IMG/VR virus record: IMGVR_UViG_3300049098_000053
Span: 1-58,100 of that record
Source of the DNA: a virus
Length of the DNA: 58,100 nucleotides
Direction: 5' to 3' (one strand)
Positions within the stretch are counted from its first letter, which is position 1, and every line of letters begins with the position of its first letter. Shown here in pieces: positions 6,390 to 31,208 of this stretch. The notes beneath the pieces are model-generated. The model had not been told where the DNA came from and searched no databases. It saw only the letters and a program-made list of their open reading frames with translations. The translations under genes were made by a program, and so were the position numbers.

Positions 6390-6847
6390 TGCCGCTCCTG
6401 GGTGGCGCAGGCAAGATGGGCGCAGGGGTTGCTTCCGGCGATCCTCGTTTCACGAATGACCCTTACAACGTCCAGAGCTTTACGATGCCGCCGACCGAGC
6501 CAGATGCTTTGGCCGGGATTGAGATTGATGCTGACGGCGGCATCGAGTCGTTCCTGAGCTCGGTAGAGGGTGGCAATCAGGGTGACATCGGCCGGTGGGA
6601 TAACGGCCTCGGTACGCTGGACATCGCAGACTACGACTTTCGGTTCGATGTCACGTCTGGCGCGGTCAACGGCATTAGCTTCGCTGCGAACACATGGCAT
6701 CCAGGGTCGGGAGGATTGATAAACTTTAGTGTTACGGAGAATTTCGGAGTCCAGACTGCAACTGGTACGCTACGCATGCGGCCAGCCGGAGGCGGGGCTG
6801 ATATTGATACCGCGAGCCTGACTCTTGGCGCTGAGAGGACACCATAA
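6389..6847 (+). CDS. Unknown virion-region protein, 152 aa
   Basis: Not recognised. ATG 6389 overlaps the fibre stop by one base (TAATG). The N-terminus is Gly-rich (MPLLGGAGKMGAG); the rest is an acidic beta-rich domain with GGIESFLSSVEGG and FRFDVTSGAVNGISF segments. Its stop overlaps the next start by one base, so it is embedded in the late virion operon. A small accessory of the preceding fibre, or a head or tail decoration, is possible (inference). Confidence 0.7.
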   Translation: MPLLGGAGKMGAGVASGDPRFTNDPYNVQSFTMPPTEPDALAGIEIDADGGIESFLSSVEGGNQGDIGRWDNGLGTLDIADYDFRFDVTSGAVNGISFAANTWHPGSGGLINFSVTENFGVQTATGTLRMRPAGGGADIDTASLTLGAERTP

Positions 6848-8820: not shown

Positions 8821-11528
8821 TGTCCACCACAGAGGAAGATCTCCAAGAGCGACTCAATACGCTGGTTCCGGAGGCGCCTGAGCTCAACGACTTCCAACAG
8901 TCGTACCAGCGCAGCGCCATGCAGGATCGGCTCGAGCTCTATGGGCAGTACACCCAGGAGGACTTTGACCGCTCCGCTCGCATTCTCAGGGTTGCCGGCC
9001 AGACCGGCATCCCGCACGACATCATTGCCGGGGGCAACTCTCTCGAGAGTCTCGAGCAGCAGATCAAACAACCGGACTTTGATGCGAACCAGTGGCTCGA
9101 GGACAGCCCGATCTTCGCCAAATATGCGTCCGAAAACCCTTACGCTCTGGTGGTCCTGAAACAGGACTCGGAGAACTTGTCCTGGATCGAGCGCGAGTGG
9201 GGCCGGCCAATGTCGCTGGCGTTCCAGTCCACAAAGGCCAAGGTGGAGCTCAACCAGATCTGGAATCGCCGCGCCATGGGCGTCGAGTATCACCAAGATG
9301 GCGATATGGAGCGCGTCGGTGAACTGCAAAAGATGGTGCAGGAGCACGATTTCGGTGCCGAGAACTGGTGGTCCCTGTCCGCGCCGTTCATCTGGGGCAC
9401 CCGTGAGATTGGCCCGATGGCGTACATCACATGGGAGGGCAAGGAGGGCGCCATGATGGGCGCCATGGCCGGTGCTGGTCTCGCAATGGTCTATGGTCAA
9501 ACCGGACCTCAGCTGCTCGCGCCGGAGGAATTGCTGACCGTTCCTTTCGGCTTCTTCACGGGCGGCGGTATTGGCTGGTCAGCTGACAGTGCCGGCGCGT
9601 CGTTCGAGATGATGCGTGGTGAGCAATACGGTCGCTACATTCAGGCTGGATTCGATCACCAAGAAGCGGCAAAGGTCTCGACCCTGACTGGTGCGATCTC
9701 GACGCTCCCAGAGCTCAGCGGTGTGGGCAAGCTGATCAAGCACATCCCCGGCGTCGACAAGGCGTTCGAGTGGACCGGAAAACAGGTAGCCGACCGCCTT
9801 GCCAGAGACATCCTCGTTCGGCAGTCATACCGGCGAGCAGCAGGCCAGCTGGCCATGCGCTATGGGCAGAATATGGCGTGGGAGATTGGCACTGAGATCT
9901 TCCAGGATAGCGTGGCAACGGTTGGCCAGAACTATCTGGCGAGCTCCACAGGACGTCCAGAGGCCGCGGTGACGTGGGACCAGTACGTCGACGATGTGGC
10001 GCACACCGCCATAATGACCGCTAAGGGTGTCATGCTGATCGGTGCTGTCGGCCCAGGGTCCAGCTTCGTGCGCGACTACAAGCGGGCTCGAGATGCTCGT
10101 GGATTGGAGGATGCGATGACCGCTCTGGCCGAGCGTCTGACTGACTCCAAAATCCGCACTGAGGCGCCTGAGCAGTACCGTGATTTCGTCGAGGAGGTTG
10201 CTGCAGCCCACGGTGGCGGCCCGCGCATCAATGCGAATCGGTGGGACGAGTTCTGGCAGAGTAACAACGAGGATCCTGACGCCATGGCCGATCGGTTCGG
10301 TATCGACCGTGACGACATGGAACTGGCCCGCGAGGTCGATATGGACATCGCGATCCCGCCAGTACCATTTGCCGAGCAGCTGGCGCCCTCGGAGCTATTC
10401 AACGGCATCGTGCCGCATCTCAAATGGACCGAGGATGGCATGTCACCGCACGAGCGGGACCTGTTCAATGCGAACAAGCCAGAGGCCATCCGTAAGATCG
10501 AGGAGTCGATCGAAAAGCTGAGCGAGGCCGAGTCCAAGGTCGACGCCATGAACCTGATCGAGGAAGTGACCGGCGAGCTCATGGCCGCAGACTTCGACCC
10601 TACCGCTGCGCAGCAGATGTCCCAGATCTACCGCGGATTCGGCGTCATTGCCGACAAGCTGGACATGGATGCGCAGGAGCTATTTGACAAATTCTACGGC
10701 GGGGTCAGGCGTGTAACGCCAGAGGCCCTGCAGCGCACCAAGATCCTAGATCCCCACATCGACCCGATCATCAACCGGCTACGCCGGCAGGACTGGCCCA
10801 CGGCCCGCCAGCAGCGCGGAGACTCCCTGATGGATCTCGTGCGTGAGATGGGCGGTCTGGACCCAACGGATCCGGAACTGTCGGCCATGGACTTCGAGCT
10901 CGGCTCCCTGGATCTCGGCATCACCAAGGCCGATATGCAGCGGTGGAAGGAATCTGGCCGGCTGGTATCGGAGATTGCGGAGACCGCGGCCGAGCGTGGC
11001 TACATCCCAGAGTACGACGAGAACCTGTTGCTGGCGGCAATCAGCCGTGAACTGGGCGGCGATCCTGTATTCGGCGCCCGTGACGATGGCATGCCGGGAA
11101 TGAGGGAAACGGCCGAGCACATGGAGCGCCTCGAGCGCATGATCCAGAATCTCGATATAGACCTCGAGAACATGAGCAATGAGGAGGTCCGAGCGGCCCT
11201 AGAAGCCGCTGACACCTATGATCAGGAATTAGCTGGTGACGAGCTCAGGTCGATCGTCGAGCAGCTGGTGCGGGCTGACGAGCTCGCTGGCGGGACCAAG
11301 GATAGGACCCCTGCGAACGAGATTGACAACGTCCTGAATCGATGGGGCACCCTCGCTCCGCTCATTTACGCGGATCAGGACTTTGGAGATCTGCAGATTA
11401 CTGATACAGTCGAGCTCGAAACGACCGGAGAGCAGGTCGAAATCACGGAAGATGCTCGAGAGAAACTTGAGCGTGTCCAGAGGCGCCAAAAGGCACTAAA
11501 AGCCCTGTTGGAGTGCGTAAGTGGCTGA
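8820..11528 (+). CDS. Large internal virion protein, 902 aa
   Basis: Follows the gp15-like protein with a one-base overlap. The N-terminal 190 residues are helical (repeated DFxANQWLEDSPIFAKY-type segments). Residues about 210-250 are small and hydrophobic (AMMGAMAGAGLAMVYG and PFGFFTGGGIGW), and could cross or coat the inner membrane. A WEIGTEIFQDSVATVGQNYL segment near 360 and a MSPHERDLF segment near 540 are typical of large polyvalent or ejected phage proteins. The C-terminal 350 residues are helical and acidic. No lysozyme motif of the T7 gp16 type is visible. It likely acts in DNA ejection. Confidence 0.65.
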   Translation: MSTTEEDLQERLNTLVPEAPELNDFQQSYQRSAMQDRLELYGQYTQEDFDRSARILRVAGQTGIPHDIIAGGNSLESLEQQIKQPDFDANQWLEDSPIFAKYASENPYALVVLKQDSENLSWIEREWGRPMSLAFQSTKAKVELNQIWNRRAMGVEYHQDGDMERVGELQKMVQEHDFGAENWWSLSAPFIWGTREIGPMAYITWEGKEGAMMGAMAGAGLAMVYGQTGPQLLAPEELLTVPFGFFTGGGIGWSADSAGASFEMMRGEQYGRYIQAGFDHQEAAKVSTLTGAISTLPELSGVGKLIKHIPGVDKAFEWTGKQVADRLARDILVRQSYRRAAGQLAMRYGQNMAWEIGTEIFQDSVATVGQNYLASSTGRPEAAVTWDQYVDDVAHTAIMTAKGVMLIGAVGPGSSFVRDYKRARDARGLEDAMTALAERLTDSKIRTEAPEQYRDFVEEVAAAHGGGPRINANRWDEFWQSNNEDPDAMADRFGIDRDDMELAREVDMDIAIPPVPFAEQLAPSELFNGIVPHLKWTEDGMSPHERDLFNANKPEAIRKIEESIEKLSEAESKVDAMNLIEEVTGELMAADFDPTAAQQMSQIYRGFGVIADKLDMDAQELFDKFYGGVRRVTPEALQRTKILDPHIDPIINRLRRQDWPTARQQRGDSLMDLVREMGGLDPTDPELSAMDFELGSLDLGITKADMQRWKESGRLVSEIAETAAERGYIPEYDENLLLAAISRELGGDPVFGARDDGMPGMRETAEHMERLERMIQNLDIDLENMSNEEVRAALEAADTYDQELAGDELRSIVEQLVRADELAGGTKDRTPANEIDNVLNRWGTLAPLIYADQDFGDLQITDTVELETTGEQVEITEDAREKLERVQRRQKALKALLECVSG

Positions 11529-11940: not shown

Positions 11941-14931
11941 ATGCCTAATCCAACAGCGGTACTAGATCCGCATTCACTGAGCCAGGGAAATATCCAGACG
12001 ATCTCGGATCTGGTTTTTGGCACACCGACTGGCGATGCGGTGACGATCACCAGCGCCGGCAGCAACATCCCGACTCTCAAGGACAAGGAGTATTTTGAGA
12101 TTCGAGGCAACTCGAACTCCGTGAACAATGGCCTGTATCAGGTCGATGACGCCACGCCGGCCGCCAACTCAGTCGATGTTCGCAAGGTTTCAGGGCCGGA
12201 CCCTGTGGTCGAGGCGGTAGCAGAGTCGAACCAGATTCTCTGCGCGCTCGAGACTGCGGTCTCTGACGCCGTCTGGGCGAACCAGTCGCTCAATGACGTC
12301 GACATCACATCGGCCGGCGGCAACCTGCCAACTTTCGAGATTGGCGCTCGCTTTGAGGTCAGGAATCACTCAGACGCCGACAACAACGGTGGCTACGAGG
12401 TCAACTCCACGGTCACGAACGGCTATAACTGCACCAAGATCACCGGCGCCGAGCCGAACAATGCCGCTTCTGAGGCGGTAGACGTCGACTCCGAGCGCAA
12501 GTCTATTTTCTACGATACCAGCGCCCTCGGGTTCTATATCCTCGAGCAGCCGGGTCTGGCCGACACCGCTGTATCTGACGCGGTGTGGCAGAACACGTCA
12601 GGCGCCAACACCGAGATCCAGAGCACGGGCGCGAACCTGCCGACCGTCCGCATCGGCCAGTACATCCTGGTGCGCAACCACGCCACGGCGGCCAACAACG
12701 GCTACTACAAGATCACCGGCATCCCAACCGTGAATACGCTGTGGGAGGTCGAGATGGTCTCCGATGGACTCACGCCGGCCGACGCAGCATCCGAAGCGGT
12801 CGACATGCAGACGGATCCGCTGGTGGATGACACTGGCGGCTTCGGCCAGCCGATCTACTCCAGAATGATGATCGACTGGAAAGACGACAACTTCCTGATC
12901 CGCAATGCCGGCTTCCCGATGTTCAACATTGACTCTGACGCCGGTAAATACCTGATGGGTCAGAACGCCTCCGGCACGAACACGGGCTGGAACTTCGTCG
13001 ACAACGCAGAGTTCGGTATCCGCTCCCGTAAGCTGGTTCGGAATATGGGCTGGCAGGAGATCAACTCCGATGGTCTCGTTACGGCTGAGTACGCAGCAAT
13101 CAGGTCCAACGCTACGGTAGAGGACAACGATCGTGACCTCGGTTACTTTCAGTTCGGCACTGACACAACCAAGGATGACACGGTGGACTTCGAGTTCGCC
13201 GGTCCGGTTGATGAGTCGATTCTGGTTTACGACGCCACGGTCACGCGGGCTCAGGCCACGCTAACTGAGGGTTACGACTTCAACGATACGGGCGACACCA
13301 TCGACCGAAACGATGGCGGCTCGTTCATCACGGACGGCTACAAGGTCGGCTCTCTCGTCATCGTAGAGAATGCCGAGACCTCAGCGGACAACGGCACCTA
13401 CCGATGCACGGCGGTCGCCGCCGCCGTCCTGACGGTCGAGAACCTCGACGGCTCCGCGGTCACGTTCTCCGACACCTCGGACGACAACACGGCCACGCTG
13501 ACGCTCGATAACCGTTTTGCCTTCGCGCTGAAACTGCGTCCTCGGGACGACGACACGTTCGGCAAGTCGTTCGCGCAGCAGGGCCTCGCAGACGCACTCG
13601 CGACTCAGCTGTCGAACCGCGCGTTCATTTTCGGTCTGGGTACGGTAGTCGATCTCAACATTTCCGAGACCGACGCGAACATCGATGCCAATACGCCTTA
13701 CACCGGCATGTCGATTACCTTCTACGCAACGCCACAGTCGCTCGGTGGCGGCTCGCTGGTTGGCGGTGCACAGAACTTCGGCATTGTCATCGACGGCAAC
13801 AACGGCACCACGACCGAGATCTACGAGTGGACACAGCGTCAGCTGAGGAAATTCACAGACATCGACGCTGACGCTGATACGGCAATCGGTCGCGCGATCG
13901 ACGGCCTGCTTCGCTTCAACGGTTCGGTGCTCGAGTTCGGCTCGGTCGACGGTGGTCTGTCCTTCCCGACTAACCCTGATGGCGGCGGCTCAGGTGTGTA
14001 CTGCCTGAACGTCAACGCGGTCAACGCCAACGATGTCGCGTTCTTTGACAACACCGGCACCCTGCGCACGAATGAGGAAACGATTGCGGTCACGCTCGAC
14101 TTCAACGACATCCTGATCGACGACACGATTGCCGAGGCTGACCTGTTCTTTGACCGCACGATCCGCACCAGTGTTGCTGATCTGGTCGTCACCGCTGGAA
14201 CTGGTGCGAACGGTACGATCACGTCTGCCGGCACAAACCTGCCGAATCCGCTCGATGTCGGTGTTGGCGCTTACATCAGGCTGGCCGGACTGACTGGCGG
14301 CGATGCTGCAATGAACGGCGTCTATCAGGTCACGGCGATCACCACGCCGGGGGCTGACTGGTCCGTCACGCGCCTTGATGGCGATACGGTGGTAACGACT
14401 TCATCGGCAGCGGTGAACGTGGACGAGCATCCGTTCGACACGCCGGATGCGCTGATCGTCAACACGGCCCTGCAGCTGACCGATACGACCATCAGCTTCA
14501 CGAGCCCAGACACGATTGGCGATACCAACTCCGGCTTTGGCATCTTCGCCGTAGGCGAGACGCTGAGGATCTCCGGTGCTGGTGCTGGCACGAACGCCGG
14601 CAAGCTGGTCAAGATCCTGACGGTTGTGGCCGGTACGATCACCATTGAGACCGGACAATTCTGGACGCCTCTCGACACTCAGGCGGCCGGTGGATCGGTC
14701 ACGCTGCAGCGTATTGCAAGCGTCGAAGCTGACTCTGACTTCTCGTTCTCGTTCGAGTTTGACGCCAACGTCCAGGGTGGCCGCGTGGTCTCTACCGAGA
14801 CTTTCGTGAAAGCCAAGGCGCTCGGACGTGAAACGGCGCAGTACACCGAGTCGGCGGTGCTCAGTATCCAGTCAGGCACTCCTCTCGTCGTACCGCTGCA
14901 GTCGCAGCAGGAACGCAATGTCGAACTGTAA
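11941..14931 (+). CDS. Repeat-containing virion appendage protein, 996 aa
   Basis: Beta-rich, Asp/Thr/Gly-rich protein built partly from a repeated module of the form ITSAGxNxPT ... Y(F/I)xxRxxSxxxNNGxYxV. Copies are clear near residues 38-70, 119-152 and 206-245, with weaker copies near 435-465 and 755-800. Between copies lies an IYSRMMIDWKDDNFLIRN block and an AFIFGLGTVVDLNISETDA block. AGGAGG lies before the ATG. No enzyme motif is visible. The composition suggests a trimeric tail or head fibre or a tail spike; the exact role is inferred. Confidence 0.7.
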   Translation: MPNPTAVLDPHSLSQGNIQTISDLVFGTPTGDAVTITSAGSNIPTLKDKEYFEIRGNSNSVNNGLYQVDDATPAANSVDVRKVSGPDPVVEAVAESNQILCALETAVSDAVWANQSLNDVDITSAGGNLPTFEIGARFEVRNHSDADNNGGYEVNSTVTNGYNCTKITGAEPNNAASEAVDVDSERKSIFYDTSALGFYILEQPGLADTAVSDAVWQNTSGANTEIQSTGANLPTVRIGQYILVRNHATAANNGYYKITGIPTVNTLWEVEMVSDGLTPADAASEAVDMQTDPLVDDTGGFGQPIYSRMMIDWKDDNFLIRNAGFPMFNIDSDAGKYLMGQNASGTNTGWNFVDNAEFGIRSRKLVRNMGWQEINSDGLVTAEYAAIRSNATVEDNDRDLGYFQFGTDTTKDDTVDFEFAGPVDESILVYDATVTRAQATLTEGYDFNDTGDTIDRNDGGSFITDGYKVGSLVIVENAETSADNGTYRCTAVAAAVLTVENLDGSAVTFSDTSDDNTATLTLDNRFAFALKLRPRDDDTFGKSFAQQGLADALATQLSNRAFIFGLGTVVDLNISETDANIDANTPYTGMSITFYATPQSLGGGSLVGGAQNFGIVIDGNNGTTTEIYEWTQRQLRKFTDIDADADTAIGRAIDGLLRFNGSVLEFGSVDGGLSFPTNPDGGGSGVYCLNVNAVNANDVAFFDNTGTLRTNEETIAVTLDFNDILIDDTIAEADLFFDRTIRTSVADLVVTAGTGANGTITSAGTNLPNPLDVGVGAYIRLAGLTGGDAAMNGVYQVTAITTPGADWSVTRLDGDTVVTTSSAAVNVDEHPFDTPDALIVNTALQLTDTTISFTSPDTIGDTNSGFGIFAVGETLRISGAGAGTNAGKLVKILTVVAGTITIETGQFWTPLDTQAAGGSVTLQRIASVEADSDFSFSFEFDANVQGGRVVSTETFVKAKALGRETAQYTESAVLSIQSGTPLVVPLQSQQERNVEL

Positions 14932-14942
14932 GGAGATGTCTT

Positions 14943-15341
14943 TTGATCACAGTCATCGCCAGATGGGACACGGTACAGATGGCGTCCGAACTCGAATGGC
15001 GCGTTTGGAGGCAGCTACGCGGGGCATTTGAGGTCGACGAATTCATCTTCGTTGGTCCGGCACTGGAAGGCTCGTACAGCTTCACCCAGGTCGCCACGGT
15101 AAGCGATGCGCTGGCACTTCTCCCCGAGGGGTGCCAGCGCGTTTTTCTTGAGCCCGGTGGATCCAAAACGGTAGCGCAAGTCCCAAGCGGGGACGTTGCC
15201 ATCATCGTTGGCAACACCGACCACTCGAACGCAGAACACGCGCAGCCTGACGAGCTTTACGGAATCCTCAGCCCAATGCCGACTGACCTGTACGGCTTCA
15301 ATGCTGCAGCGATAGCCTTGGCTCTCAGGTACGGTCAGTGA
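14943..15341 (+). CDS. Unknown alpha/beta protein, 132 aa
   Basis: TTG start at 14943, supported by AAGGAG 5-6 bases upstream. It looks like a Rossmann-type alpha/beta domain: a first strand ITVIARW, a long helix, an EFIFVGPA strand, SDALALLPEG, then PSGDVAIIVGNTDHSN and a final PTDLYGFNAAAIALALRYG helix. The last two segments recall the knotted end of SPOUT RNA methyltransferases, but this is a weak resemblance and no cofactor residues can be assigned. It overlaps the next gene by 4 bases (GTGA). Unusual among fibre genes. Confidence 0.65.
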   Translation: MITVIARWDTVQMASELEWRVWRQLRGAFEVDEFIFVGPALEGSYSFTQVATVSDALALLPEGCQRVFLEPGGSKTVAQVPSGDVAIIVGNTDHSNAEHAQPDELYGILSPMPTDLYGFNAAAIALALRYGQ

Positions 15342-16936
15342 GCACAGATAACAGAACGACGCTCAACGCTTGCGATTCAAACTCTGGTTGGGGCGGCGAC
15401 GATGGTACGCCGAGCTCAGTCACGGCTGCGGGTCTGACCTACGAGAACGCCAACTCTCTCTCGTTCCAGCATACGAACGCGCCCGAGCACACGTACTACA
15501 CAGACGGCACCGGATGGAACCTGGCGGATGCCGTCTGCTTCCTGATCGTAAAGGTGAACCAGCAGGACTCGCAGGCCAATGGCGGCATGCAGTATGTCCT
15601 TGGTGACGGCACGGATCGCCTCGGCGTAGAAACCAACGGCTCAGACAACCCCGGTGTCGCGCTGCGAGATCTGTTCTACGGCATGAACATCGATACGACG
15701 ATTCTTTCCAGCTTCACGCAGCAGAACTACGCCGGCGTCAATGCCAACCTGACGCTCTCGGCTATCACGCAGGTAGGCTACGGCTCGAACCACTTGGCCA
15801 AGGCCCAGGGCGCGGTCGACAACATCTACCTCGATCGACTCAGCTTCATCGCCAATGACTCGGCCGCCTTTACGATCAATGGTGGCACGGTAGGCACTCC
15901 GGAGACGTGGACAGACTTCCAAGGCGACGACTCAACGAACGGTTGGGGCGTCTGCGGCAACCCGTTCGCTGACCAGTTCCAGATGAATGCGTCGTTCGAT
16001 ATGGGCGATGCAGGCACAGCGAGCACGTATTTCGAGATGGACGGTGTGCAGCTGTACCTGTTCGGTCAGGCCTACGGCGCCGGTCACTTTTTCTGGGACC
16101 TGATCTCTAACGCGACCGGCACGAACTCGCTGGAAATTAACGGCTCGCAGATCATCTCGATCGCAGGTTCGACTGGCAACCCGATCGACCTCGGCTGGAA
16201 CAGTGCCAACTTCGACACAATCAACGTCGACGGCTCGATTTTCGTCGATGTAGGTAATTGGGAACTGCCGGGTAACTCAGCGACCCGCTGGATCCGGACG
16301 TCAACGATCGACAATCCGATCAGCATTACGCCTAACGGCATGGAGATCAGCGACACCACGATCAACCAAGGCGCGCAATCACGCGCTGACGGCATGATGA
16401 TCCTCGATACCGCCGGCGACTCGAACAACATGGACGGCGTGGTTTTCAATAGCGACGGCACTGGCCACGCCATTGAGATCACAGCACCGGGGGCATACAC
16501 ATTCACAGCCCTCGAGTTCAATGGTTACGACGCCGGTACGGACGCGAACGGCGGCTCGACCGGCAACGCCAACTCGGCCATCTACAACAACTCTGGCGGC
16601 GCAGTCACGATCACGGTCGTCGACGGCGCTACGCCATCGGTGCGCGATGGCACAGGAGCCAGCACAACGGTCGTGGCCAACATCGCGCTGACGTTCACGC
16701 CGCTCGAGCTCAACACTGAGGTCCGGATTCTCGAGACCGGAACCAATACTGAGGTCGATGGTGTTGAAAACAGCGGCACCAGCTTCGTAGCGACCGTGCC
16801 AAGCGGGCAGGCCATTGACATACGAATAATCAACCCGGGCTGGCTGGATATCGAGACGATCAATGTGAGCTTCACTTCGTCGCAGAGCATCCTCGTAAAC
16901 CAGCAGTTCGATCGCAACTTTGACAGGGTGGGCTGA
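15338..16936 (+). CDS. Beta-helix-like virion appendage protein, 532 aa
   Basis: GTG start overlapping the previous stop. Long run of short strands rich in Asn, Asp, Gly, Ser and Thr with regular turns (for example VTAAGLTYENANSLSFQHTN, ITAPGAYTFTALEFNGY), consistent with a right-handed parallel beta-helix or a trimeric spike shaft. The C-terminal 100 residues form a separate Ig-like sandwich (LTFTPLELNTEVRILETGTN). No catalytic acid pattern of a polysaccharide lyase or glycosidase can be assigned by eye. It lies in a run of five co-translated appendage genes. Confidence 0.65.
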   Translation: MSTDNRTTLNACDSNSGWGGDDGTPSSVTAAGLTYENANSLSFQHTNAPEHTYYTDGTGWNLADAVCFLIVKVNQQDSQANGGMQYVLGDGTDRLGVETNGSDNPGVALRDLFYGMNIDTTILSSFTQQNYAGVNANLTLSAITQVGYGSNHLAKAQGAVDNIYLDRLSFIANDSAAFTINGGTVGTPETWTDFQGDDSTNGWGVCGNPFADQFQMNASFDMGDAGTASTYFEMDGVQLYLFGQAYGAGHFFWDLISNATGTNSLEINGSQIISIAGSTGNPIDLGWNSANFDTINVDGSIFVDVGNWELPGNSATRWIRTSTIDNPISITPNGMEISDTTINQGAQSRADGMMILDTAGDSNNMDGVVFNSDGTGHAIEITAPGAYTFTALEFNGYDAGTDANGGSTGNANSAIYNNSGGAVTITVVDGATPSVRDGTGASTTVVANIALTFTPLELNTEVRILETGTNTEVDGVENSGTSFVATVPSGQAIDIRIINPGWLDIETINVSFTSSQSILVNQQFDRNFDRVG

Positions 16937-17529: not shown

Positions 17530-17747
17530 GCTCGCATTTTCTCAGCGGACACCACGCATCGGGGCACTTCGCCTCTGCGCACTTCGGCCGCACGATTGTC
17601 GTGCCGCCGATCGTTCCGGACGAGCCGGTACACCCGCCGGGTACTGGCCGCGGCATCGATGCTACGCTGCAGAAGCGAATCATGGAGGAGGAGGAGCTCC
17701 TGATGCTGGTCATTCGGGCGTTCCTCCACATGCGGAATAGGGACTGA
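17526..17747 (+). CDS. Small His-rich protein, 73 aa
   Basis: GTG at 17526 overlaps the previous stop (GTGA), and its stop overlaps the next ATG (TGATG). The first 25 residues contain seven His with Ser, Ala and Gly (MSSHFLSGHHASGHFASAHFG), then a Pro-rich linker and a C-terminal amphipathic helix (EEEELLMLVIRAFLHMRNR). The His cluster could bind metal. It is tightly coupled to the giant polyvalent gene, so it may be a partner or a regulator of it (inference). Confidence 0.65.
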   Translation: MSSHFLSGHHASGHFASAHFGRTIVVPPIVPDEPVHPPGTGRGIDATLQKRIMEEEELLMLVIRAFLHMRNRD

Positions 17748-20700
17748 TGGCACTCGGCTACAAAAACTGCATCAAGCGGCTGCGAAAAAACGGCTACAAG
17801 GTTGAGCTCTCTGACCGGCGCCTGATCAAAACGCTCCTGAACGAGGGGCTCACGATCGATCAGGTAGTCACAAAGATGCTGGCTGAGTCGACCCTGGATG
17901 TGATCGAGACCGTCCAGCAGATCGAGGCACTGGGCGCAGATGTCGAGACCGGCCGTGGCCAGCTGGCAGAGATCAAGGACTTTCGCACCGAGCAACTCAA
18001 GGCTGAGATGGCATCGCGCCGCGAGATCAGCCAGAAGATCTCAGAGGCCAATGCCGAGTATCAGGACATCAAGCAAGACGCTGAGATGTTCGACAAGATC
18101 CTGTCGCAGGCGCTCGACGAGGAGGTCGCGTTCCTGGATCTCACCGAGAACGAGGCCAAGCTGTATTTCGGCCAGCTGATGATGCGGGCCACGACGACCG
18201 AGCTCCCCACTGGTAAGCCCGGTCAGAATCGTAACCGGATCTGGCCCGAGGACCGCTTCCGTGTCGCCATGGAGAACGGCACCTTGCTCGTGTCTGGCAA
18301 CACGCCGCAGGAGATCTATGACAGCCGTGTCGCTCTCGAGACGCAGCTGGCTGAAAAGAAAAAAGTGGTGCAGGAGCTCAAGGCCCAAAAGGCCGAGGTC
18401 CAAAAACAGATCGAGTCGAAGTTCGGGCCCGAGACTGTCGTCGAGCCTGACGTGCTGTTCCAAAAAGAGGGCGACCTCGAGGCCGAGGTCACTGGTGTCG
18501 CAGCCAAGGGTGACGTCAACAAGCAACGCATGACCCGCCTGCTCGGCGCTCAGCTGTACGGCGACATGAACAAGATCCAGTCGGTGACGGTCAAGGAGGT
18601 ATTCCAAAACGCCTTCGATGCCGTGCGTACTGCGGTGCGCAACGGTGACATCGAGGACGGCCAGATCACCATGGAAGTCACCGAGGACAAGCGCACCCTG
18701 ATCGTCCAGGACAACGGTGTCGGCATGACGCCAGAGATGATCAATGAGGGCTTCCTGACGCTGGCCGGCACCCGCAAAGAGGGCGACGTAAACTCCGGCG
18801 GCTTCGGTGTGGCCAAGGGCCTGTTCCTTGCCGGCAACAAGAAGCTGAAACTTGTGACCATTCGTGACGGCGTCAAAACAACGCTCGAGACGACTGGCGA
18901 TGACTTCATGGCAAGCCTCGAGGATCCGGAGCACTCGCTCGACCAGCGGTATCCAGCCGACCAAGCTCTGCGCGTTAGCAAGACTGATGGCGAGAACGGC
19001 ACCCGAGTCGAGATCACCATTCCTGAGCAATTTCAGGACTTCAAGACACGAGAGTTCAAGGACATCCGACAGTTCGAGGGATGGGACATGGGCTCAACCG
19101 CGGACAACCAGCTTCTCGATCCGAGGATCACGGTCAGAACGCGGGTACGGCCAGACACGAGATTCAATACGCGGGACGCCGGCAAAGAGTTCCGGCTCGA
19201 TCGATACCGCTCGATCGGTGAGGTCAGGTTCGAGTGGGGCACGGCCGACATCCTGATCGAAAAGGACGAGAACGAGCACGTCTCAAGCAAAAACACGACG
19301 ATCTCCATAGAGGGCCTGAATCAGCTGGACATAATGACCACGGAGAATCCGTGGGATCCCGGCGCCGGAAAGCTGAAACGGCGCATCTACATCAACATGC
19401 ACCCACAGGACGCGGACGGCAATCCGATCGATGCCGGCGATCCAGGGTATCCGATGGAGCTCAACCGTCAGGGCCTACAGCAACACGCGGCCGAGGACAT
19501 CTTCCAGATCCAGTCGTATCTCGCGGTACTCATGTGGCGAGACCAGAGCGCAGAGATCGCTCGCGGCTACGGCACCCTGCGTGAGATCAAGCCGAGCGGA
19601 GAGCTAGGCGACCCCGTTGATCTGACGCCGCCGCCTCCGGTGCAGGAGTCACTGACCGGCAAGATCGACACCGGCGAGGAATTGCGGGTTGAGAACGGCG
19701 AGCTCATTGTTGACGGTGTTGGTCAGGGCAAACTGGACCGTGACAACATGGCGCAGGAGCGTCGTGAGATGGACGAGTACAAGGTCGATCAGGACCTAGT
19801 GCCGACGCAGCGCCCGATGATTCACAACCAGATGGCATTCAAGGCCGAGGAGGAGATGACCTCCTACTTCCTGGACGACACCGCGGCCGAGCCGGGTATG
19901 GATCTGATCGAGGCCCTCAATCAGGAGTTCGGGGAGAACCGCGTCAACGAGTATTTCTTCTCGGTTGGCGATGTGTTCATGGACATCAGGGACCTGCTGG
20001 CCAATTACGGGCAGGAGAAAATGTACGAGGACATCGAGAAAATCGGTGTTGGCGTCAGTGTCCTTGGCCGTCGCTACTACGGTGTGCACACCAAGGTCCC
20101 CGGTCGCATGATGTTTGTGAACCCCGGGCAGGATCCTCGTGAGATCAACGACATTCGCGAGATGGACTGGGACGGCCCCAAAGCCCGTGACGACATGGAC
20201 TCCAAGGAGTTCCAGACTGTAGCGACCTCAATGATCACAACCATGGTGCACGAGGCTGCACACTACGCTGAGATGTCGCACGATCAGGACTATCTGTTTG
20301 CTTTGCAGAGCGCATTCTCTACCATGCTCGAGCACAGCGAGCACGTCGATCACATCAAGGACCGACTACAGGAAGCGATTTATGAAAACTGGGAAATCTA
20401 CCGATACATCTCAGAAGCCCTCGAGTCAGGATCTATCGAAGTCTCTGGTATTAGCCTCTCGGACGTTGGCTCAGACTCCAGAGGAAATGAGAGCCGTGCT
20501 GACGTCGCTGCACGAGAACGCCGAGAGCGTGGGCGAGGGGAGGGTGGTCCAGATGAAGCTGCGCAGGGCGATGTCGATACTGGACAACAGCAAGACGCTG
20601 ACGCAATTCAGGCAGGCTATAGAGACGGCGGCACTGTAGTACCAGAGGGGGACGTTCACCCCAACGCCGGCGAGGACTCCGAGTTCTATCAGACCTACTG

Positions 20701-23700
20701 GCATGGCTCGCATGCCAAATGGGATTTCCCAGATCTAGGATTCATGGGCACCGGAGAGGGCGCCCAGATGGCCGGCTACGGAATGTATCTGGCCGAGGTC
20801 ATGGATGTTGGCAAGGGGTATCAGCCCCGAGATCTCAAGCGAGATCAGAACCTCTACGACATGTATAAACAGGCCGAGCAGGCCAACGATGCGATCCGCA
20901 TGGAGCTCCTCGAGGACGCCATGCTGCACTGGACGCCAGACGAGATCCGCGAGAACTACACGGAGGACAACGGCTACGGTCCCGAGGCCGTCGCTCGGGC
21001 TCAGGAGTTTGCCGACGAGCTCCACGCGATCGATCAGGAGTCCGAGGGCTCGCTGTATCAAATCGAGATCAACGACGAAGCGGACGCCATGATGATGCTC
21101 TGGGACGCGCCGCTCAGTGAGCAGCCGGAAGCCGTACAGGCCGCGCTCAAGTCACTGATCCAGCGCACCGCGTCCGCGTTTCCTGATGGCATCCTGGCTG
21201 AGATGGGTTTCGAGGAGATCGGCACTGGCGGCGCCCTGTACCGTGCACTGGCCGATGATCTGGGGTCCGAAAAAGAGGCGAGCATGGAGCTTAACTCCGT
21301 TGGGATCCCGGGACACAAGTTCCTCGATGCGCAATCACGGGTAAGCCCGGTGAGTGCCGGCACGGGCGGGTTCATCCAAGGCATACGTGACGTCCTCGGG
21401 CGCCAGCCGACACACAACCTCGTGCTCTACGACACGAGCGTCATCGATCAGGTCAAGCGCGACGGTGAGGTCGTCTACCCAGAGCAGGCTCTCGAGCAAG
21501 GCGGCATCGAGGAGGGCGGCGAGCGCGGCCGTATCACATTCAACGAGGCCCGTAAGGGATTCATCGAGATCCTGTCGTCCGGCGATGTCTCGACGTTCAT
21601 TCACGAGACTGGCCACCTGTACCTCGAGGTTCTACGGTGGGCCGCTCAGCAAGAGAACGCGCCTCAGCAACTCAAAGATGACTGGCAGACCGTGAAGGAA
21701 TACACGGGCGCCACGGACGAGGCCATCCCCAAGGACGCTCACGAGAAGTTCGCAAATTCGTTCGAGATCTATGCTCTCGAGGGCAAGGCCCCGAGCATTG
21801 CGCTGCAGGACTCATTCAGTTTCTTCCGCTCCTGGATGACGCGGATCTATCGCAAGCTGAAAAACATCACGGGCGTACATCTGCATCCGGAGATCCGCGG
21901 TGTCATGGACCGGCTTCTGGCCAGCGATGAGGAGATCGCCATTGCCGAGCAGTCGCAGGGCTACGTCGCGCTGTTCGCTACGGCCCAGGATGCTGACATG
22001 ACTGAGGCTGAGTTCGAGCTCTACGCCAAGCAAGTGCAGCGGGAGCACGACGACAACGTGGGCAAGGAGCACCGCCGCATGATGGCCGCAATGGAACGCG
22101 ACCAGACAAAGTGGTGGAAGGCTGAGCGCAAGAAGATCCGCGCCGAGGTCGAGGAGGAGATGCACGAGGAGCGCGTCTACAAGGCGCTGTATTTCCTGCA
22201 GCGTGGCACTCGGCCTGATGGCAGCCCGACCAGAGGGCAGGCCACCAAAATCAACAAGGAGAGCCTCCTGCGGCTTCTCAATTACGATCAGCAATCACTG
22301 AACAAGTTACCGCGGCCGTTCATCTACACGGTGGAGGGCGGCACTGACGTCGAAGTCTTGGCCCGCACCTTGGAATACGCGAATGGCCTCGAGATGATCG
22401 AGGAGATCTCCAACGCCAAGCGCATGAAGGATGTCATCAACGCTGAGACCGAGGTCCGCATGCGCAGGATCTATGGTGATCCGCTGACTGATGGCACCCT
22501 GCCGGACAACGCACTCCGTCGTGTGCATACCGAGGGACGCCTCAAGATCCTCACCAAAGAGCTCCGCAAGTTGCGCCAGCTGGCTGCTGAGGATCGGCCA
22601 GCGGTACGTGCGGCGCAGCAAGCGGAGCGCCAGCGTGACCGTCAGGCCAGAGAGGCCAACAAGGGACAGATCCCCGGCCGTGCTGAGATGGCAATGCTCA
22701 AGGCTGCTGCTCGTGAGGTCATCAACGGCATGCGGATCTCGCAGATCAAGCCGCACATCTACCTGCGCGGCGAGCAAAAGGCCGGCCGCGAGGCTTTCGC
22801 TGCTCTTGAGAAGCGGGACTATCAGACTGCCTATGCCGCCAAGCTGCGCCAGATCAAGAATCACGAGATGTACCGCGCGGCGATGGCCGTGCAAAAAGAG
22901 ATGGAGTCCACGCGCAAGGCGGTGATCCGATACCAAGGCCCACGGCTGCGCAAGAAACTGGGGCTGGCCAAGGTTCTCAATCAGGTCGATGCGGTACTCG
23001 AGAACGTCGACCTCAAGAAGCGGTCGATGGCCGATCTCGAGCGCAAGAAAGCATTGCAGGGCCTCAAGGAGGCGGTATCCAAGGGCACCCTGATCGTCAC
23101 GCCTGACACGCAGCGCAAGATCATGGATGAGTCTGTCCACTGGACTGAGTTCACGCCCGACGAGTTCCGCGAGATCAAGTCGGTGCTAAAACAGATCGAG
23201 CACGGCGCTCTGAACGAGGACAAGATGACCGTCAATGGCGAGCTCGTCGACTACCAAGAAGTCGAGGACGAGATCGTCGATCACATGCGGACAGCCAACG
23301 AGGAGATCAAGCTACGTCCTGGTGGCGTCCAGACCAGCGGCGAGCGTGGCAACTCGAACGTCGACCAGTCGATTATGACGTGGCTCCGGCCGAGCTCGAT
23401 CGCTCGCATCTTGGACAAGACTGGGTTCGGCGCCCTGACGCGCCGGATCATCGTGCCGCTCCGTCGAGCGTATGCCGAGAAGCTGATCCCGATGCTGCAC
23501 CAAGCGCAAAAGGACGTAATGCAGATTTATCTAAAGCATTACAACATGACCGAGCTCGGTCAGATGTCCAAGCGCCATTACAAGATCAACACACTGGGCG
23601 GTGAGCTCTACTCGAAGTCCGAGCTCCTGTCGATGGCCCTGAACTGGGGCAACCAAGGCAACCGTGACGCGGTGCTCGGCGGGTCCTACAAGGGCAAACC

Positions 23701-25375
23701 CGTGTTCACCGAGCAGACCGTTCGGGAGATGCTCTCTCACCTGACGTCAAAGGACTGGGCGTTCGTGCAGGACATCTGGGACTACAACGACACCTACCGC
23801 GAGGCGATCTTCGATGCAGAGGAACGCAGGCGCGGGATCAGGCCCGAAAAGGTAGAGGCCCTCCCGTTCTCTATTCGCACGTCAGACGGCCAGCTGATCA
23901 CTGTCAAGGGCGGCTATCACCCGCTCCGCTACGATCACCAGTACGACGCCAAAGAGGGCCGGGGCAAGCAAAAGGTCAAGGCCGAGGAGGCTATCGATAA
24001 TGCGCTTAATCACATCGCCAATGGCACATTCGTCACCGCCAACACCCGCGCCGGATCGACTCATAACCGCGTCAAGAATCACGGCAGAGTGGTACGGCTT
24101 GGCCTGAACATCATCGACTCGCACCTGCGCGAGGTCATCCGTGACATCGCCATTGGTGACGAGGTCAGACACGTCAAGCGCCTGCTGGATTCTGGCTCAG
24201 TAGAGCGGGCATTCAGGGACACGGGCAATGGCGCAGCCTACGAGGCGCTCGGGCTGTGGCTCACTGATGCTGCGGTTGGCGAGCTCCCCGCCGAGAATGC
24301 GATCGAGTTCGGTATCGCGTGGCTCCGGACTGGATTCACCAAGGCCAAGCTCGGCTGGAATTTCGCAGTTATGGCGCTGCAGCTTACTGGCCTGTTCCAG
24401 ACGATCTCGGTCATCGGCACCCGTGCCTTCTCTGCCGGCTTCGTCAAGTACATCCAGAATCCTGCTGCGGCTACTCGGCACGTCATGGATCAGTCGTCAT
24501 TCCTGCACACCCGCTACGTGGTGGGCGGCTTCGACAAGGATGTGCAGGACACCAAGGCCATTGTCGAGAGTGAGTTCGGGTCCATGCCGACGCGCACTAA
24601 GCGGGCATACAACTTCGTCGCCAACACGCTTTTCACAGGCATCGCATGGTTCCAGAAGATTGTCGACGTGATCACCTGGATGGGCGCCTATGAGAAAGGC
24701 CTCAACGAGATCAATCAGGATGCCGGCGGTCTCTCAGAGCAAGATGCAATTATCTACGCCGACACGCAGGTCGAAGCGGCACAGACCTCCGGCTTCTTCT
24801 CCGATCGCTCCGGCCTCGAGCGCGGCACGACTGGGCTGCGCAAGAATCGTCAGTCTCAGCTGCTCCGCATCTGGACTACGCTGATCTCGTACATGCTGGC
24901 GAAGTCAAACATCGCCTACGAAAAATACAAGGACACCAATTTCAAGGATCCGAAGCAAGTCATGGACCTGCTGCTGGACATGATTCTGCTCTACACGGTG
25001 GAGGGTATTGCATCGGCCCTGATCTACCAGAGGCTCCCAGAGGATGACGACGAGCCGGAGGAATGGGCAAAGTGGGCTGCGGTGCAGTCGCTCGACTCAC
25101 TCACCGCCGGCATTCCGTTCGTGCGTGAGATTGCCAGTGCCCGCTTCGGAGGCGGCAACACGCCGGTCGGTGTATTCTCCAATGACGCGATGACGCTGAT
25201 CGAGCAATACCTCCAAGGAGAGGCAGACTGGGCCTCGGTTGATGCGACCCTAGATGTGGTGGGCACGATCGGACACCTGCCGACCGGGCAGATCAGCAAA
25301 ACAGGCGAGAAACTATGGGAGGAGGGCCTCACCACAGACGACTGGTGGGAATACTTCACTGGCCCCAAGGACTAG
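17747..25375 (+). CDS. Giant polyvalent ejected protein: GHKL ATPase, two HExxH motifs, ADP-ribosyltransferase-like domain, 2542 aa
   Basis: Domains in order: helical coiled coil (1-240); a GHKL-type ATPase with an N-box EVFQNAFDA near 283, DNGVGM at 322-327 and GGFGVAKG at 351-358; an HEAAH metallopeptidase motif at 835-839; a low-complexity linker (about 880-970); an ADP-ribosyltransferase-like domain starting YWHGS near 984 with GTGEGAQMAGYGMYLAE at 1001-1017 and LVLYDTSVIDQVKRDG near 1225; a second zincin motif HETGH at 1286-1290; then over 1200 residues of charged helix ending in small hydrophobic stretches. Such multi-domain polyvalent proteins are known to be injected with phage DNA to act on host targets. 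Co-translated with the His-rich protein upstream. The GHKL module in this setting is unusual. Targets are unknown. Confidence 0.85.
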   Translation: MALGYKNCIKRLRKNGYKVELSDRRLIKTLLNEGLTIDQVVTKMLAESTLDVIETVQQIEALGADVETGRGQLAEIKDFRTEQLKAEMASRREISQKISEANAEYQDIKQDAEMFDKILSQALDEEVAFLDLTENEAKLYFGQLMMRATTTELPTGKPGQNRNRIWPEDRFRVAMENGTLLVSGNTPQEIYDSRVALETQLAEKKKVVQELKAQKAEVQKQIESKFGPETVVEPDVLFQKEGDLEAEVTGVAAKGDVNKQRMTRLLGAQLYGDMNKIQSVTVKEVFQNAFDAVRTAVRNGDIEDGQITMEVTEDKRTLIVQDNGVGMTPEMINEGFLTLAGTRKEGDVNSGGFGVAKGLFLAGNKKLKLVTIRDGVKTTLETTGDDFMASLEDPEHSLDQRYPADQALRVSKTDGENGTRVEITIPEQFQDFKTREFKDIRQFEGWDMGSTADNQLLDPRITVRTRVRPDTRFNTRDAGKEFRLDRYRSIGEVRFEWGTADILIEKDENEHVSSKNTTISIEGLNQLDIMTTENPWDPGAGKLKRRIYINMHPQDADGNPIDAGDPGYPMELNRQGLQQHAAEDIFQIQSYLAVLMWRDQSAEIARGYGTLREIKPSGELGDPVDLTPPPPVQESLTGKIDTGEELRVENGELIVDGVGQGKLDRDNMAQERREMDEYKVDQDLVPTQRPMIHNQMAFKAEEEMTSYFLDDTAAEPGMDLIEALNQEFGENRVNEYFFSVGDVFMDIRDLLANYGQEKMYEDIEKIGVGVSVLGRRYYGVHTKVPGRMMFVNPGQDPREINDIREMDWDGPKARDDMDSKEFQTVATSMITTMVHEAAHYAEMSHDQDYLFALQSAFSTMLEHSEHVDHIKDRLQEAIYENWEIYRYISEALESGSIEVSGISLSDVGSDSRGNESRADVAARERRERGRGEGGPDEAAQGDVDTGQQQDADAIQAGYRDGGTVVPEGDVHPNAGEDSEFYQTYWHGSHAKWDFPDLGFMGTGEGAQMAGYGMYLAEVMDVGKGYQPRDLKRDQNLYDMYKQAEQANDAIRMELLEDAMLHWTPDEIRENYTEDNGYGPEAVARAQEFADELHAIDQESEGSLYQIEINDEADAMMMLWDAPLSEQPEAVQAALKSLIQRTASAFPDGILAEMGFEEIGTGGALYRALADDLGSEKEASMELNSVGIPGHKFLDAQSRVSPVSAGTGGFIQGIRDVLGRQPTHNLVLYDTSVIDQVKRDGEVVYPEQALEQGGIEEGGERGRITFNEARKGFIEILSSGDVSTFIHETGHLYLEVLRWAAQQENAPQQLKDDWQTVKEYTGATDEAIPKDAHEKFANSFEIYALEGKAPSIALQDSFSFFRSWMTRIYRKLKNITGVHLHPEIRGVMDRLLASDEEIAIAEQSQGYVALFATAQDADMTEAEFELYAKQVQREHDDNVGKEHRRMMAAMERDQTKWWKAERKKIRAEVEEEMHEERVYKALYFLQRGTRPDGSPTRGQATKINKESLLRLLNYDQQSLNKLPRPFIYTVEGGTDVEVLARTLEYANGLEMIEEISNAKRMKDVINAETEVRMRRIYGDPLTDGTLPDNALRRVHTEGRLKILTKELRKLRQLAAEDRPAVRAAQQAERQRDRQAREANKGQIPGRAEMAMLKAAAREVINGMRISQIKPHIYLRGEQKAGREAFAALEKRDYQTAYAAKLRQIKNHEMYRAAMAVQKEMESTRKAVIRYQGPRLRKKLGLAKVLNQVDAVLENVDLKKRSMADLERKKALQGLKEAVSKGTLIVTPDTQRKIMDESVHWTEFTPDEFREIKSVLKQIEHGALNEDKMTVNGELVDYQEVEDEIVDHMRTANEEIKLRPGGVQTSGERGNSNVDQSIMTWLRPSSIARILDKTGFGALTRRIIVPLRRAYAEKLIPMLHQAQKDVMQIYLKHYNMTELGQMSKRHYKINTLGGELYSKSELLSMALNWGNQGNRDAVLGGSYKGKPVFTEQTVREMLSHLTSKDWAFVQDIWDYNDTYREAIFDAEERRRGIRPEKVEALPFSIRTSDGQLITVKGGYHPLRYDHQYDAKEGRGKQKVKAEEAIDNALNHIANGTFVTANTRAGSTHNRVKNHGRVVRLGLNIIDSHLREVIRDIAIGDEVRHVKRLLDSGSVERAFRDTGNGAAYEALGLWLTDAAVGELPAENAIEFGIAWLRTGFTKAKLGWNFAVMALQLTGLFQTISVIGTRAFSAGFVKYIQNPAAATRHVMDQSSFLHTRYVVGGFDKDVQDTKAIVESEFGSMPTRTKRAYNFVANTLFTGIAWFQKIVDVITWMGAYEKGLNEINQDAGGLSEQDAIIYADTQVEAAQTSGFFSDRSGLERGTTGLRKNRQSQLLRIWTTLISYMLAKSNIAYEKYKDTNFKDPKQVMDLLLDMILLYTVEGIASALIYQRLPEDDDEPEEWAKWAAVQSLDSLTAGIPFVREIASARFGGGNTPVGVFSNDAMTLIEQYLQGEADWASVDATLDVVGTIGHLPTGQISKTGEKLWEEGLTTDDWWEYFTGPKD
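20382..20639 (+). CDS. Candidate nested gene in the +1 frame of the giant gene, 85 aa
   Basis: Inside the giant gene, in the +1 frame, AGGAAG lies 6 bases before an ATG that opens 85 codons ending in TAG. The second half (PEEMRAVLTSLHENAE, then VVQMKLRRAMSILDN) reads like a natural helical protein and uses the genome's preferred codons (CTG, GAG, GCC, ACG). Over the same bases the giant frame encodes a Gly/Arg/Glu/Gln-rich low-complexity linker with codons such as CGA, AGA, GGG. Either this is a true overlapping gene or a frameshift product that ends the first half of the giant protein. Function unknown. Confidence 0.45.
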   Translation: MKTGKSTDTSQKPSSQDLSKSLVLASRTLAQTPEEMRAVLTSLHENAESVGEGRVVQMKLRRAMSILDNSKTLTQFRQAIETAAL

Positions 25376-29830: not shown

Positions 29831-30570
29831 TGTCATCAAACTTTGAGAAGCGCATATTCATGCCGCGCGGTCCGCTCGGGCCGACGACTGCCATGGGTGA
29901 CGGCAAAGAAAAGCGCATCATTCGCTGGTATCGCAGGGAGTGGGAGGAGTTCCTCGCTGAGGTCAGGGCTTACAAGCACGAGGTCGGCATCGCTTACCAC
30001 GATCTCCGGCTGTATCTGTTCGAGGAGCGACAGCGGTGCGCTCGTTGTCGCAAGACGCATGACGCGCTCAATCGGATTGCAGATCTAACGGTCAGGCATC
30101 CGGCGCTGCGCAGATACCAGCGCGGCATGCTGTCAGGCTTTGGCGTCAGGCGATCGGCTTGGGCTGCCGGTGACTGCTCCTTTACGGCCTCAGCAATCCC
30201 GACCTTTACCGACTTCTGCGTCAATCCTTGCGCGGCGCGCACCGCCGCCAGACTTCATAGCGATGGCGATTGGTACTACCAAGCCGGCACGGGCTTTGGT
30301 CCGTCAGATGGAACGTGGCAGGGTGACTGCGCGGTCGCGGACTACGACACGCGCCACGTAAAAAACAGCGGCGATAATTCCAACTACCTAACGTCGGGCG
30401 TCAACGCGACATGGTCGGCGGCCTCAACTTCCAAGGCGGTCGGTTACGATCAAAACGGCTTTGGCATTCTCTCGGGTAATTTCGACCTAGAATGCAGGGA
30501 TGGAACGAGCCTTACCGTGCTGTTCACCGACAACTTCACAATGAACGCCGAAGTGGATGCAAAAAACTGA
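29830..30570 (+). CDS. Unknown Cys-containing protein, 246 aa
   Basis: The ATG shares one base with the fibre stop. Residues 20-105 are basic and helical and hold a CARCRKTHDAL segment near 75, a possible metal-binding hook. The C-terminal 130 residues are Gly/Ser/Asn-rich with scattered Cys (AAGDCSF, DFCVNPCAART, WQGDCAVADYD, FDLECRDG), which could form disulfides outside the cytoplasm. No family recognised. Its place between the fibre and the sulfotransferase suggests a tail-tip or fibre-maturation role (inference). Confidence 0.65.
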   Translation: MSSNFEKRIFMPRGPLGPTTAMGDGKEKRIIRWYRREWEEFLAEVRAYKHEVGIAYHDLRLYLFEERQRCARCRKTHDALNRIADLTVRHPALRRYQRGMLSGFGVRRSAWAAGDCSFTASAIPTFTDFCVNPCAARTAARLHSDGDWYYQAGTGFGPSDGTWQGDCAVADYDTRHVKNSGDNSNYLTSGVNATWSAASTSKAVGYDQNGFGILSGNFDLECRDGTSLTVLFTDNFTMNAEVDAKN

Positions 30571-31208
30571 TGATTATTTCTCATAGCAAGGGGGTCTGCT
30601 TCTGGAAGATACCCCGCACCGGGAGCTCAAATGTCGAGATGATTCTGCGTCTGACTGCAGGGCTGGATTACAGCCAGGATGTCGTCGCGCGGACGAACTT
30701 CTACGATCACTCTCACAATTTCAGCACCATGCCAGACACCGCGGACGGAGTTCCCGGGGACCGGCGAGCCCACATCACGCCGCAGACGGCCATCGACAAC
30801 GGGTTCCTGACGCTGGCGCAATACAATGCCTACGATCACTACTGCATCGTTCGGGATCCGGTCGATCGTTTTATATCGACAATCCATCTGGCCCTGCCCG
30901 GTCAGGCCGAGGGTTTCAATGTTGGGGATCTGGTCCAGTTCATGCAGCAGCACATGAGCGAGGCGCACTACCGCCCGCAGGTCGAGTGGCTCACGCTCGG
31001 CAACATCAATGCGCTGCCGTTCTCTGACTACGAGAATAGCGTCAACACGATCCTGACTGCCTTCGGGGCGCCGATCCCGGCCGGCGGTCTGCCTCGAGTG
31101 TCGCGGTCGCACTGGCGCTTCCTGGACATCGTGAAGCAGATCCCAGATCAGGCGCAGCGCGGACTCATTCGGGCCTTCTGGTCAGCTGATTCAGGACTTT
31201 CGACATGA
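30570..31208 (+). CDS. Sulfotransferase-like protein, 212 aa
   Basis: Shows both PAPS-binding signatures of sulfotransferases. The 5'-phosphosulfate loop reads KIPRTGSS at residues 13-20 and is preceded by a strand (GVCFWK). The 3'-phosphate site reads RDPVDRFIS at 95-103, preceded by a YCIV strand. The enzyme family moves a sulfuryl group from PAPS to a hydroxyl or amino group of sugars, proteins or small molecules. His49 (HSHNF) or His48 could act as base. The length matches compact bacterial and marine-phage forms. It is linked by TGATG to the gene before it and by ATGA to the endolysin. The target could be a host or virion glycan (inference). Confidence 0.8.
   Translation: MIISHSKGVCFWKIPRTGSSNVEMILRLTAGLDYSQDVVARTNFYDHSHNFSTMPDTADGVPGDRRAHITPQTAIDNGFLTLAQYNAYDHYCIVRDPVDRFISTIHLALPGQAEGFNVGDLVQFMQQHMSEAHYRPQVEWLTLGNINALPFSDYENSVNTILTAFGAPIPAGGLPRVSRSHWRFLDIVKQIPDQAQRGLIRAFWSADSGLST

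Follow-up and report, generated by a model that had tools for sequence, protein, structure and literature searches.

A polyvalent protein of 2542 residues in an environmental phage

We analyzed a 58,100-nucleotide stretch of viral DNA (the window), corresponding to positions 1 to 58,100 of the IMG/VR virus record IMGVR_UViG_3300049098_000053, and focused on one giant gene within it. The open reading frame (ORF) at 17747-25375 on the plus strand is open throughout, starts with ATG and encodes a protein of 2542 amino acids, as stated in an earlier note made from the sequence alone. By own-genome search the gene is present in a single copy in the 58,100 bases of the record, and its base composition resembles that of the flanking DNA. 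The motifs named in that note are all present and at most one residue off: EVFQNAFDA at residues 284-292 (the N-box, previously placed near 283), DNGVGM at 322-327, GGFGVAKG at 351-358, HEAAH at 835-839, YWHGS at 984-988, GTGEGAQMAGYGMYLAE at 1001-1017 and HETGH at 1286-1290. None of them is a chance match. The protein combines several unrelated enzymatic domains in one chain together with zincin and LPD-type parts, and it is a phage polyvalent protein.

The N-terminal ~130 amino acids (17747-18136; this and the following parts of the protein are on the plus strand) are common to phrog_9880-type relatives with or without the ATPase module (L012, L029, L013 and L005; L numbers designate individual loci). 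An LFQ motif at residues 237-239 (18455-18463), also found in L002 and L011, stands just ahead of a GHKL/Bergerat ATPase domain at residues 252-440 (18500-19066), with N-box residues E284, N288 and D291, the DNGVGM motif and the lid SGGFGVAK at 350-357. It is followed by an Hsp90-like middle (S5-type) domain at 441-640 (19067-19666), containing Arg574 within YPMELNRQ (19466-19468), and by a first zincin (zincin 1) at 690-865 (19814-20341), whose HEAAHYAEMSH at 835-845 (20249-20281) has the form HExxHxxxxxH. A linker at 906-980 (20462-20686), predicted to be disordered (predicted local distance difference test score, pLDDT, 22-37), lies between these parts and a swappable effector, in this protein a divergent ADP-ribosyltransferase (ART)-like domain at 979-1240 (20681-21466); a low-complexity linker is present at this place in nearly all relatives. 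The hydrophobic-x-Gln motif LEQ at 1249-1251 (21491-21499) precedes a conserved C-terminal core at 1258-2542 (21518-25372), which opens with a second zincin (zincin 2; residues 1258-1450, 21518-22096) carrying HETGH and is homologous to phrog_9880 and to Bbp10 of Bordetella phage BPP-1.

The ATPase, the middle domain and the first zincin form one module

Residues ~250-865 constitute one inseparable module, in which the Bergerat ATPase, the Hsp90-like middle domain with its arginine and the zincin occur in fixed order and spacing. The ATPase itself was recognized by Pfam, with HATPase_c (PF02518) matching residues 282-367 (E=6.4e-7; score 30.2 bits, cut-off 26.4) and a second profile, HATPase_c_3 (PF13589), also scoring above its cut-off. 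Among 50,697 named phage records, we found no full-length relative of the N-terminal 1255 amino acids; there the GHKL part was matched by rIIA-type proteins only and the ART part by a few phage proteins. In IMG/VR, residues ~250-980 of the window protein have counterparts in L002 and L011, both of which keep the ATP-site residues, Arg574 and HExxH. Alignment queries were needed to go further: a single-sequence scan with the N-terminal half and a GHKL-only genome scan returned nothing, and the two-sequence alignment A1 returned only the already known L002. The wider alignments A4 and A5 yielded at least 171 IMG/VR relatives of the module, of which 80 were kept. With duplicates removed, 74 distinct copies, in ORFs of 1.2-5.2 thousand amino acids, could be aligned from the N-box to HExxH; copy L095 was excluded because of an insertion after HExxH. 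Besides the window, at least 70 environmental phages thus have the module, which is widespread in such phages and absent from the named phages searched.

The 74 copies are highly divergent, with pairwise identities of 20-95% and 39 clusters at 60%, and yet the order GHKL, middle domain, zincin is the same in every one of them. Residues E284, N288, D291, D322, G326, M327, G351, G354, A356, K357, G418, Y568, P569 and R574 of the ATPase and middle domains are invariant (74/74), as are N792, P793, H835, E836 and H839 of the zincin part, with H845 in 73/74; the N-box and HExxH counts are partly a matter of selection, since the scan was seeded with GHKL motifs and extraction required an N-box and an HExxH followed at +10 by H, D, E or N; the counts for the lid and Arg574 are free of this selection. 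As any of four residues was allowed at +10, the near-uniform His there is more independent evidence. Conservation of the ATP-site residues, lid glycines included, had been named beforehand as decisive for the ATPase assignment, and it held in all copies.

Because of this selection, a reverse scan was run with zincin peptides as the sole seed. Out of 76 loci, 72 were evaluable (at least 500 amino acids upstream in the same ORF), and all 72 encode a GHKL domain in the same ORF with N-box, DxGxG, lid and YP..R intact, at 521-633 amino acids from HExxH. As many contigs are common to both scans and one large clade is involved, this result shows linkage and not independent origins. Similarly, the GHKL and zincin distance matrices are correlated (r=0.74; 0/2000 permutations reach this value, permutation maximum 0.19), as expected for co-inherited parts. 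These results change the view of the protein in the earlier note, where the GHKL domain was an unusual addition and the first HExxH a separate metallopeptidase. The GHKL domain is instead half of a fixed GHKL-middle-zincin unit present in many giant phage proteins, the first HExxH belongs to that unit, and only the ART is interchangeable.

Outside of phages, a bacterial-genome scan with the full module gave only HtpG-type Hsp90s lacking the zincin among the matches listed, so that a prophage or cellular origin is unsupported in the bacterial sample. A plasmid search likewise gave only Hsp90-like GHKL matches, and PADLOC detected nothing convincing. Two IMG/VR records, L102 and L103, encode an HtpG-type Hsp90 of 667 amino acids; the L102 record may include host sequence, as its match statistics are the same as those of the Lelliottia chromosome locus L106.

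Predicted structure relates the module to Hsp90 and rIIA

An AlphaFold model of residues 245-985, built from an 11-sequence alignment, has a mean pLDDT of 71, with the ATPase, middle and zincin cores mostly at 75-93 and the last 80 residues disordered. Foldseek against the PDB matched this model to Hsp90, TRAP1 and GRP94 over their N-terminal and middle (N+M) domains (E down to 1.3e-12, probability 1.00), in alignments of ~420 columns; judging from the high root-mean-square deviation values, the model does not reproduce the domain orientation of Hsp90. Sequence-profile matches of the GHKL part were likewise to HtpG, TRAP1 and GRP94. The predicted GHKL domain is therefore, as the earlier note had proposed, a Bergerat fold with an intact ATP site, and the stretch 280-360, on which that proposal had been staked, adopts this fold in the model. 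Arg574, within YP[MF]xxxR[QE], is the best candidate for the counterpart of the Hsp90 middle-domain arginine (R380). The HExxH of zincin 1 falls in a helix of the model predicted at 575-597, and HExxHxxxxxH has metzincin-like spacing with the usual Gly missing. The possibility that zincins 1 and 2 are recent duplicates of each other was rejected (hhalign probability 7%).

The strong similarity to Hsp90 N+M in the predicted structure could mean that the protein carries its own foldase, with the module as an Hsp90-like chaperone that would refold the giant protein after its unfolded passage through the tail, while the zincin would clear misfolded copies or be structural. Carriers of 1.2-5.2 thousand amino acids encoded in ejection gene clusters would fit such a role. 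However, most giant relatives of the same phrog_9880-type carrier do without the module (in one sampled set of C-terminal-core loci only L002 and L011 had it), and the zincin active site is invariant, which would be needless in a structural part; we consider a foldase improbable.

A second line of similarity leads to the rIIA proteins of phages. In BFVD, the best match to the full-length module was a 1404-amino-acid viral protein fragment (736 columns, E=7e-50), followed by Hsp90-like and rIIA proteins, the latter around 1e-9. The GHKL stretch is rIIA-like in PHROGs (E=2e-7) and aligns to rIIA with an hhalign probability of 98.4. Since rIIA orthologs consist of an N-terminal GHKL domain and a variable C-terminal domain (PMC7824862), the module might be a relocated rIIA-type counter-defense ATPase, with the zincin as one of these variable partners and no gating of a protease. 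Such a relocation appears as hard to sustain as a foldase: the hhalign match is limited to the ATPase part (columns 10-244), the zincin remained unaligned in 3/3 rIIA proteins compared, and the module is always found within a giant protein.

The module moves between carriers and its downstream effector is swapped

The domain that follows the module differs between carriers: a true ART-PolyVal in L002 (E=1.7e-19), RadC in L011 (E=6.8e-21) and the divergent ART in the window, with other domains elsewhere. At least two carrier families hold the module, namely phrog_9880, as in the window, and DarB-like giants. A phrog_9880-type core is present in 8 or 9 of the 74 copies, and 65 lack it. Three core-less carriers were scanned; two have C-termini of the phrog_11358 type, one of which (L145) also matches phrog_10089, 'DarB-like antirestriction', and the third has no PHROG match. 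Domains co-occurring with the module include LPD22, LPD38, LPD5, LPD1, InPase, MutS_I, RadC, ResIII/DEAD helicase, FtsK_gamma and ART-PolyVal. In L094, FtsK gamma and sigma-70 region 1.1 are encoded in one ORF (5202-10328) with the GHKL-zincin module. The window architecture is not unique, as L129 has GHKL, zincin, ART and core in the same order at about one third identity. The module moves between carriers, and the effector after it is exchanged.

The ART-like domain of the window is probably an ART of the polyvalent type. All 8 sequences compared keep H986, Y1014 and D1194, in agreement with the H-Y-D configuration that Iyer et al. (PMC5512222) give for the ARTs of polyvalent proteins. Homologs of this stretch also stand directly ahead of the same core in other loci (L051, E=8e-18). 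As for the ART-PolyVal match anticipated in the earlier note, Pfam gave none (PF18760) in the window protein, hhalign against the true ART-PolyVal of L002 was insignificant, and only homologs of the window domain have sub-threshold links to the family (2.8e-4, 5.5e-4 and 1.3e-5). Its AlphaFold model is of low confidence (pLDDT 62) without a significant Foldseek match, and the central part of the protein (window 20150-22400) had no significant match in a PDB sequence search. Thus the motifs and homologs of the proposed ART stood up and its fold was not confirmed, and this assignment is weaker than those of the other motifs.

A junction motif accompanies the C-terminal core and its own zincin

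Residues 1256-2523 match phrog_9880 with E=4e-255, and named-phage relatives of this core include Bbp10 of BPP-1 and proteins of Xanthomonas, Pseudomonas, Caulobacter and Vibrio phages. Both HExxH motifs reported earlier are accounted for: the first is conserved together with the ATPase in the 74 relatives and the second opens this core. A hydrophobic-x-Gln motif, mostly LFQ, occurs within 30 amino acids ahead of the core in 75/79 non-redundant proteins (random windows: mean 24.8, maximum 38), and LFQ alone in 22 against 1.0 at random. With E, N, K or R in place of the final Gln, the pattern showed no excess ahead of the core in the 79 proteins. The offset is variable, with LFQ or LYQ lying 9-24 amino acids ahead of the core start. 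The motif looks like a candidate processing or docking site. It also precedes the core in L004, L012, L013, L016, L035, L064 and others, and LFQ is found directly ahead of ART domains too and, in L017, ahead of a PBECR5-like stretch. As a cleavage site of the module itself in DarB-like carriers it was rejected, being at chance level ahead of the GHKL module across carriers (20/70 against 25 at random).

These observations bear on a self-processing unit, in which the ATPase would sense arrival in the cytoplasm through ATP and the zincin would cut the polyvalent protein into separate effectors. Such a role has been proposed for zincins in polyvalent proteins (PMC5512222), and both the predicted disordered linker after the module and the swappable effectors downstream of it are what one would expect of it. 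On the other hand, the sole junction motif found tracks the core and zincin 2, not the GHKL module in DarB-like carriers, and in some carriers the module lies near the C-terminus with little left to release (92 amino acids in L094 and 112 in L165). We find self-processing by the module doubtful, if less so than a foldase or a relocated rIIA. The association of the motif with the core and zincin 2 speaks for processing of the carrier by zincin 2 or another phage protease, and for a different substrate of zincin 1; zincin 2 is the more likely candidate for the carrier's own processing enzyme.

Genome setting points to probable ejection with the DNA

Two tail proteins (phrog_394 and phrog_376; 606-4060) and an internal virion protein (phrog_418; 4380-4943) are encoded upstream on the same strand, as is a companion of 902 amino acids (8820-11528) that combines LPD22 with a match to the N-terminal half of phrog_9880. 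Because of this match, what relatives encode as a single phrog_9880-type protein is split over two non-adjacent genes in the window. Three further large proteins of 996, 532 and 657 amino acids (11941-14931, 15338-16936 and 6847-8820) in the same cluster have no PHROG or Pfam match. At 30492-31208, beside tail genes, there is a weak match to a galactose-3-O-sulfotransferase family (phrog_3347, E=3e-5).

In Pseudomonas phage AF, the core homolog comes directly after two 'internal virion proteins' and a 'structural lysozyme', at the position typical of T7-type ejection proteins. The carriers of L155 and L187 adjoin, or are one gene away from, phrog_4287 'DNA ejection protein', after virion structural genes. 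Given the position of the AF homolog, ejection of the window protein is likely; homology and gene order thus favor the ejected-protein setting proposed earlier. Among giant proteins of this kind, P1 DarB is found in purified virions and is believed to pass into the cell (PMC9024508), and a DarB-like protein of phage JC1 was detected in purified virions with 51 unique peptides (PMC9144972).

An injected ATP-gated metalloprotease as the preferred reading

We favor a reading in which the module is an injected, ATP-gated metalloprotease effector acting on a protein of the infected cell, and we give it a probability of about one half. The carrier would be built into the virion and leave it together with the DNA. 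Once in the ATP-rich cytoplasm, the GHKL domain would bind ATP and close, probably as a dimer, as GHKL ATPases do elsewhere, and Arg574 would complete the site. Closure would then present a substrate to the adjoining zincin or switch the zincin on. The target would belong to the newly infected cell and would most plausibly be a host defense or regulatory protein, with the module acting on it alongside the ART and other effectors. With rIIA as the closest phage kin, a counter-defense role would be reasonable. The earlier note had also mentioned a chromosome protein, and no finding in this analysis points to a chromosomal target.

Several points weigh against this reading. ATPase activity, protease activity and presence in the virion are predictions for all members of the module. 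Zincin 1 of the window protein has no Pfam match of its own, and its assignment is a prediction based on the invariant HExxHxxxxxH and the modelled structure. The C-terminal dimerization domain of Hsp90 is absent from the AlphaFold model, where the zincin takes its position, so that dimerization of the module is an assumption. The carrier itself may be the substrate of the zincin. Moreover, the only named-phage matches to the ATPase part are rIIA proteins, and the DarB proteins of P1 and JC1, in which the module was not found, are relatives of the carrier alone.

Comparison with known systems

Polyvalent proteins of phages are believed to bring finished enzymes into the cell within the first minutes of infection, and to our knowledge a target is known for almost none of these domains. 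An Hsp90-type ATPase and a zinc protease remain paired across very divergent phages and carriers, and the compact module of ~650 amino acids is a clear experimental target in which two single-residue mutants, at E284 and E836, would separate the ATPase from the protease. If the proposed gating holds, this would be an ATP-dependent protease on a motor other than the known AAA+ ones. A more tentative proposal, possible but less probable than the gated effector as such, is that the module represents the first known class of ATP-dependent protease in which a GHKL (Hsp90-type) clamp takes the place of the AAA+ ring as motor, used as a mobile effector injected at the start of infection. The module is also relevant to what the related rIIA ATPase does, a question long open in phage biology.

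Hsp90, HtpG and TRAP1 are the best PDB matches and share the Bergerat ATPase and the middle domain with its conserved Arg. Unlike Hsp90, the module resides inside virion-type giant proteins and has a zincin instead of the C-terminal dimerization domain, and for this replacement we do not class it as an Hsp90. The T4 rIIA family shares the phage GHKL ATPase profile and structural similarity over ~390 columns, but rIIA is stand-alone, has no aligned HExxH part and lies outside any ejection gene cluster in the records read. The DarB-like antirestriction proteins of P1, Bcep22 and JC1 are giant virion proteins, to which L145 is linked by its C-terminus; DarB's own domains are a methylase and a helicase, and the module was not found in the P1 and JC1 proteins. 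The phrog_9880/Bbp10 family has in common with the window protein the C-terminal ~1280 amino acids, zincin 2 and a comparable genome position behind the internal virion proteins; most of its members lack the GHKL-zincin module, and in the window the N-terminal half of the family is a separate upstream gene.

Finally, the polyvalent proteins of Iyer et al. 2017 (PMC5512222) resemble the window protein in their giant multi-domain form, zincins, ART, RadC and LPD domains and presumed injection with DNA. The main text of that paper makes no mention of GHKL, Hsp90 or HATPase, although its supplementary lists may hold an earlier one, and the accessible full-text literature contains no description of GHKL with a zincin, or of HATPase with a metallopeptidase, in an injected phage protein. 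Polyvalent proteins are already known, and it is the GHKL-middle-zincin module that appears to be new.

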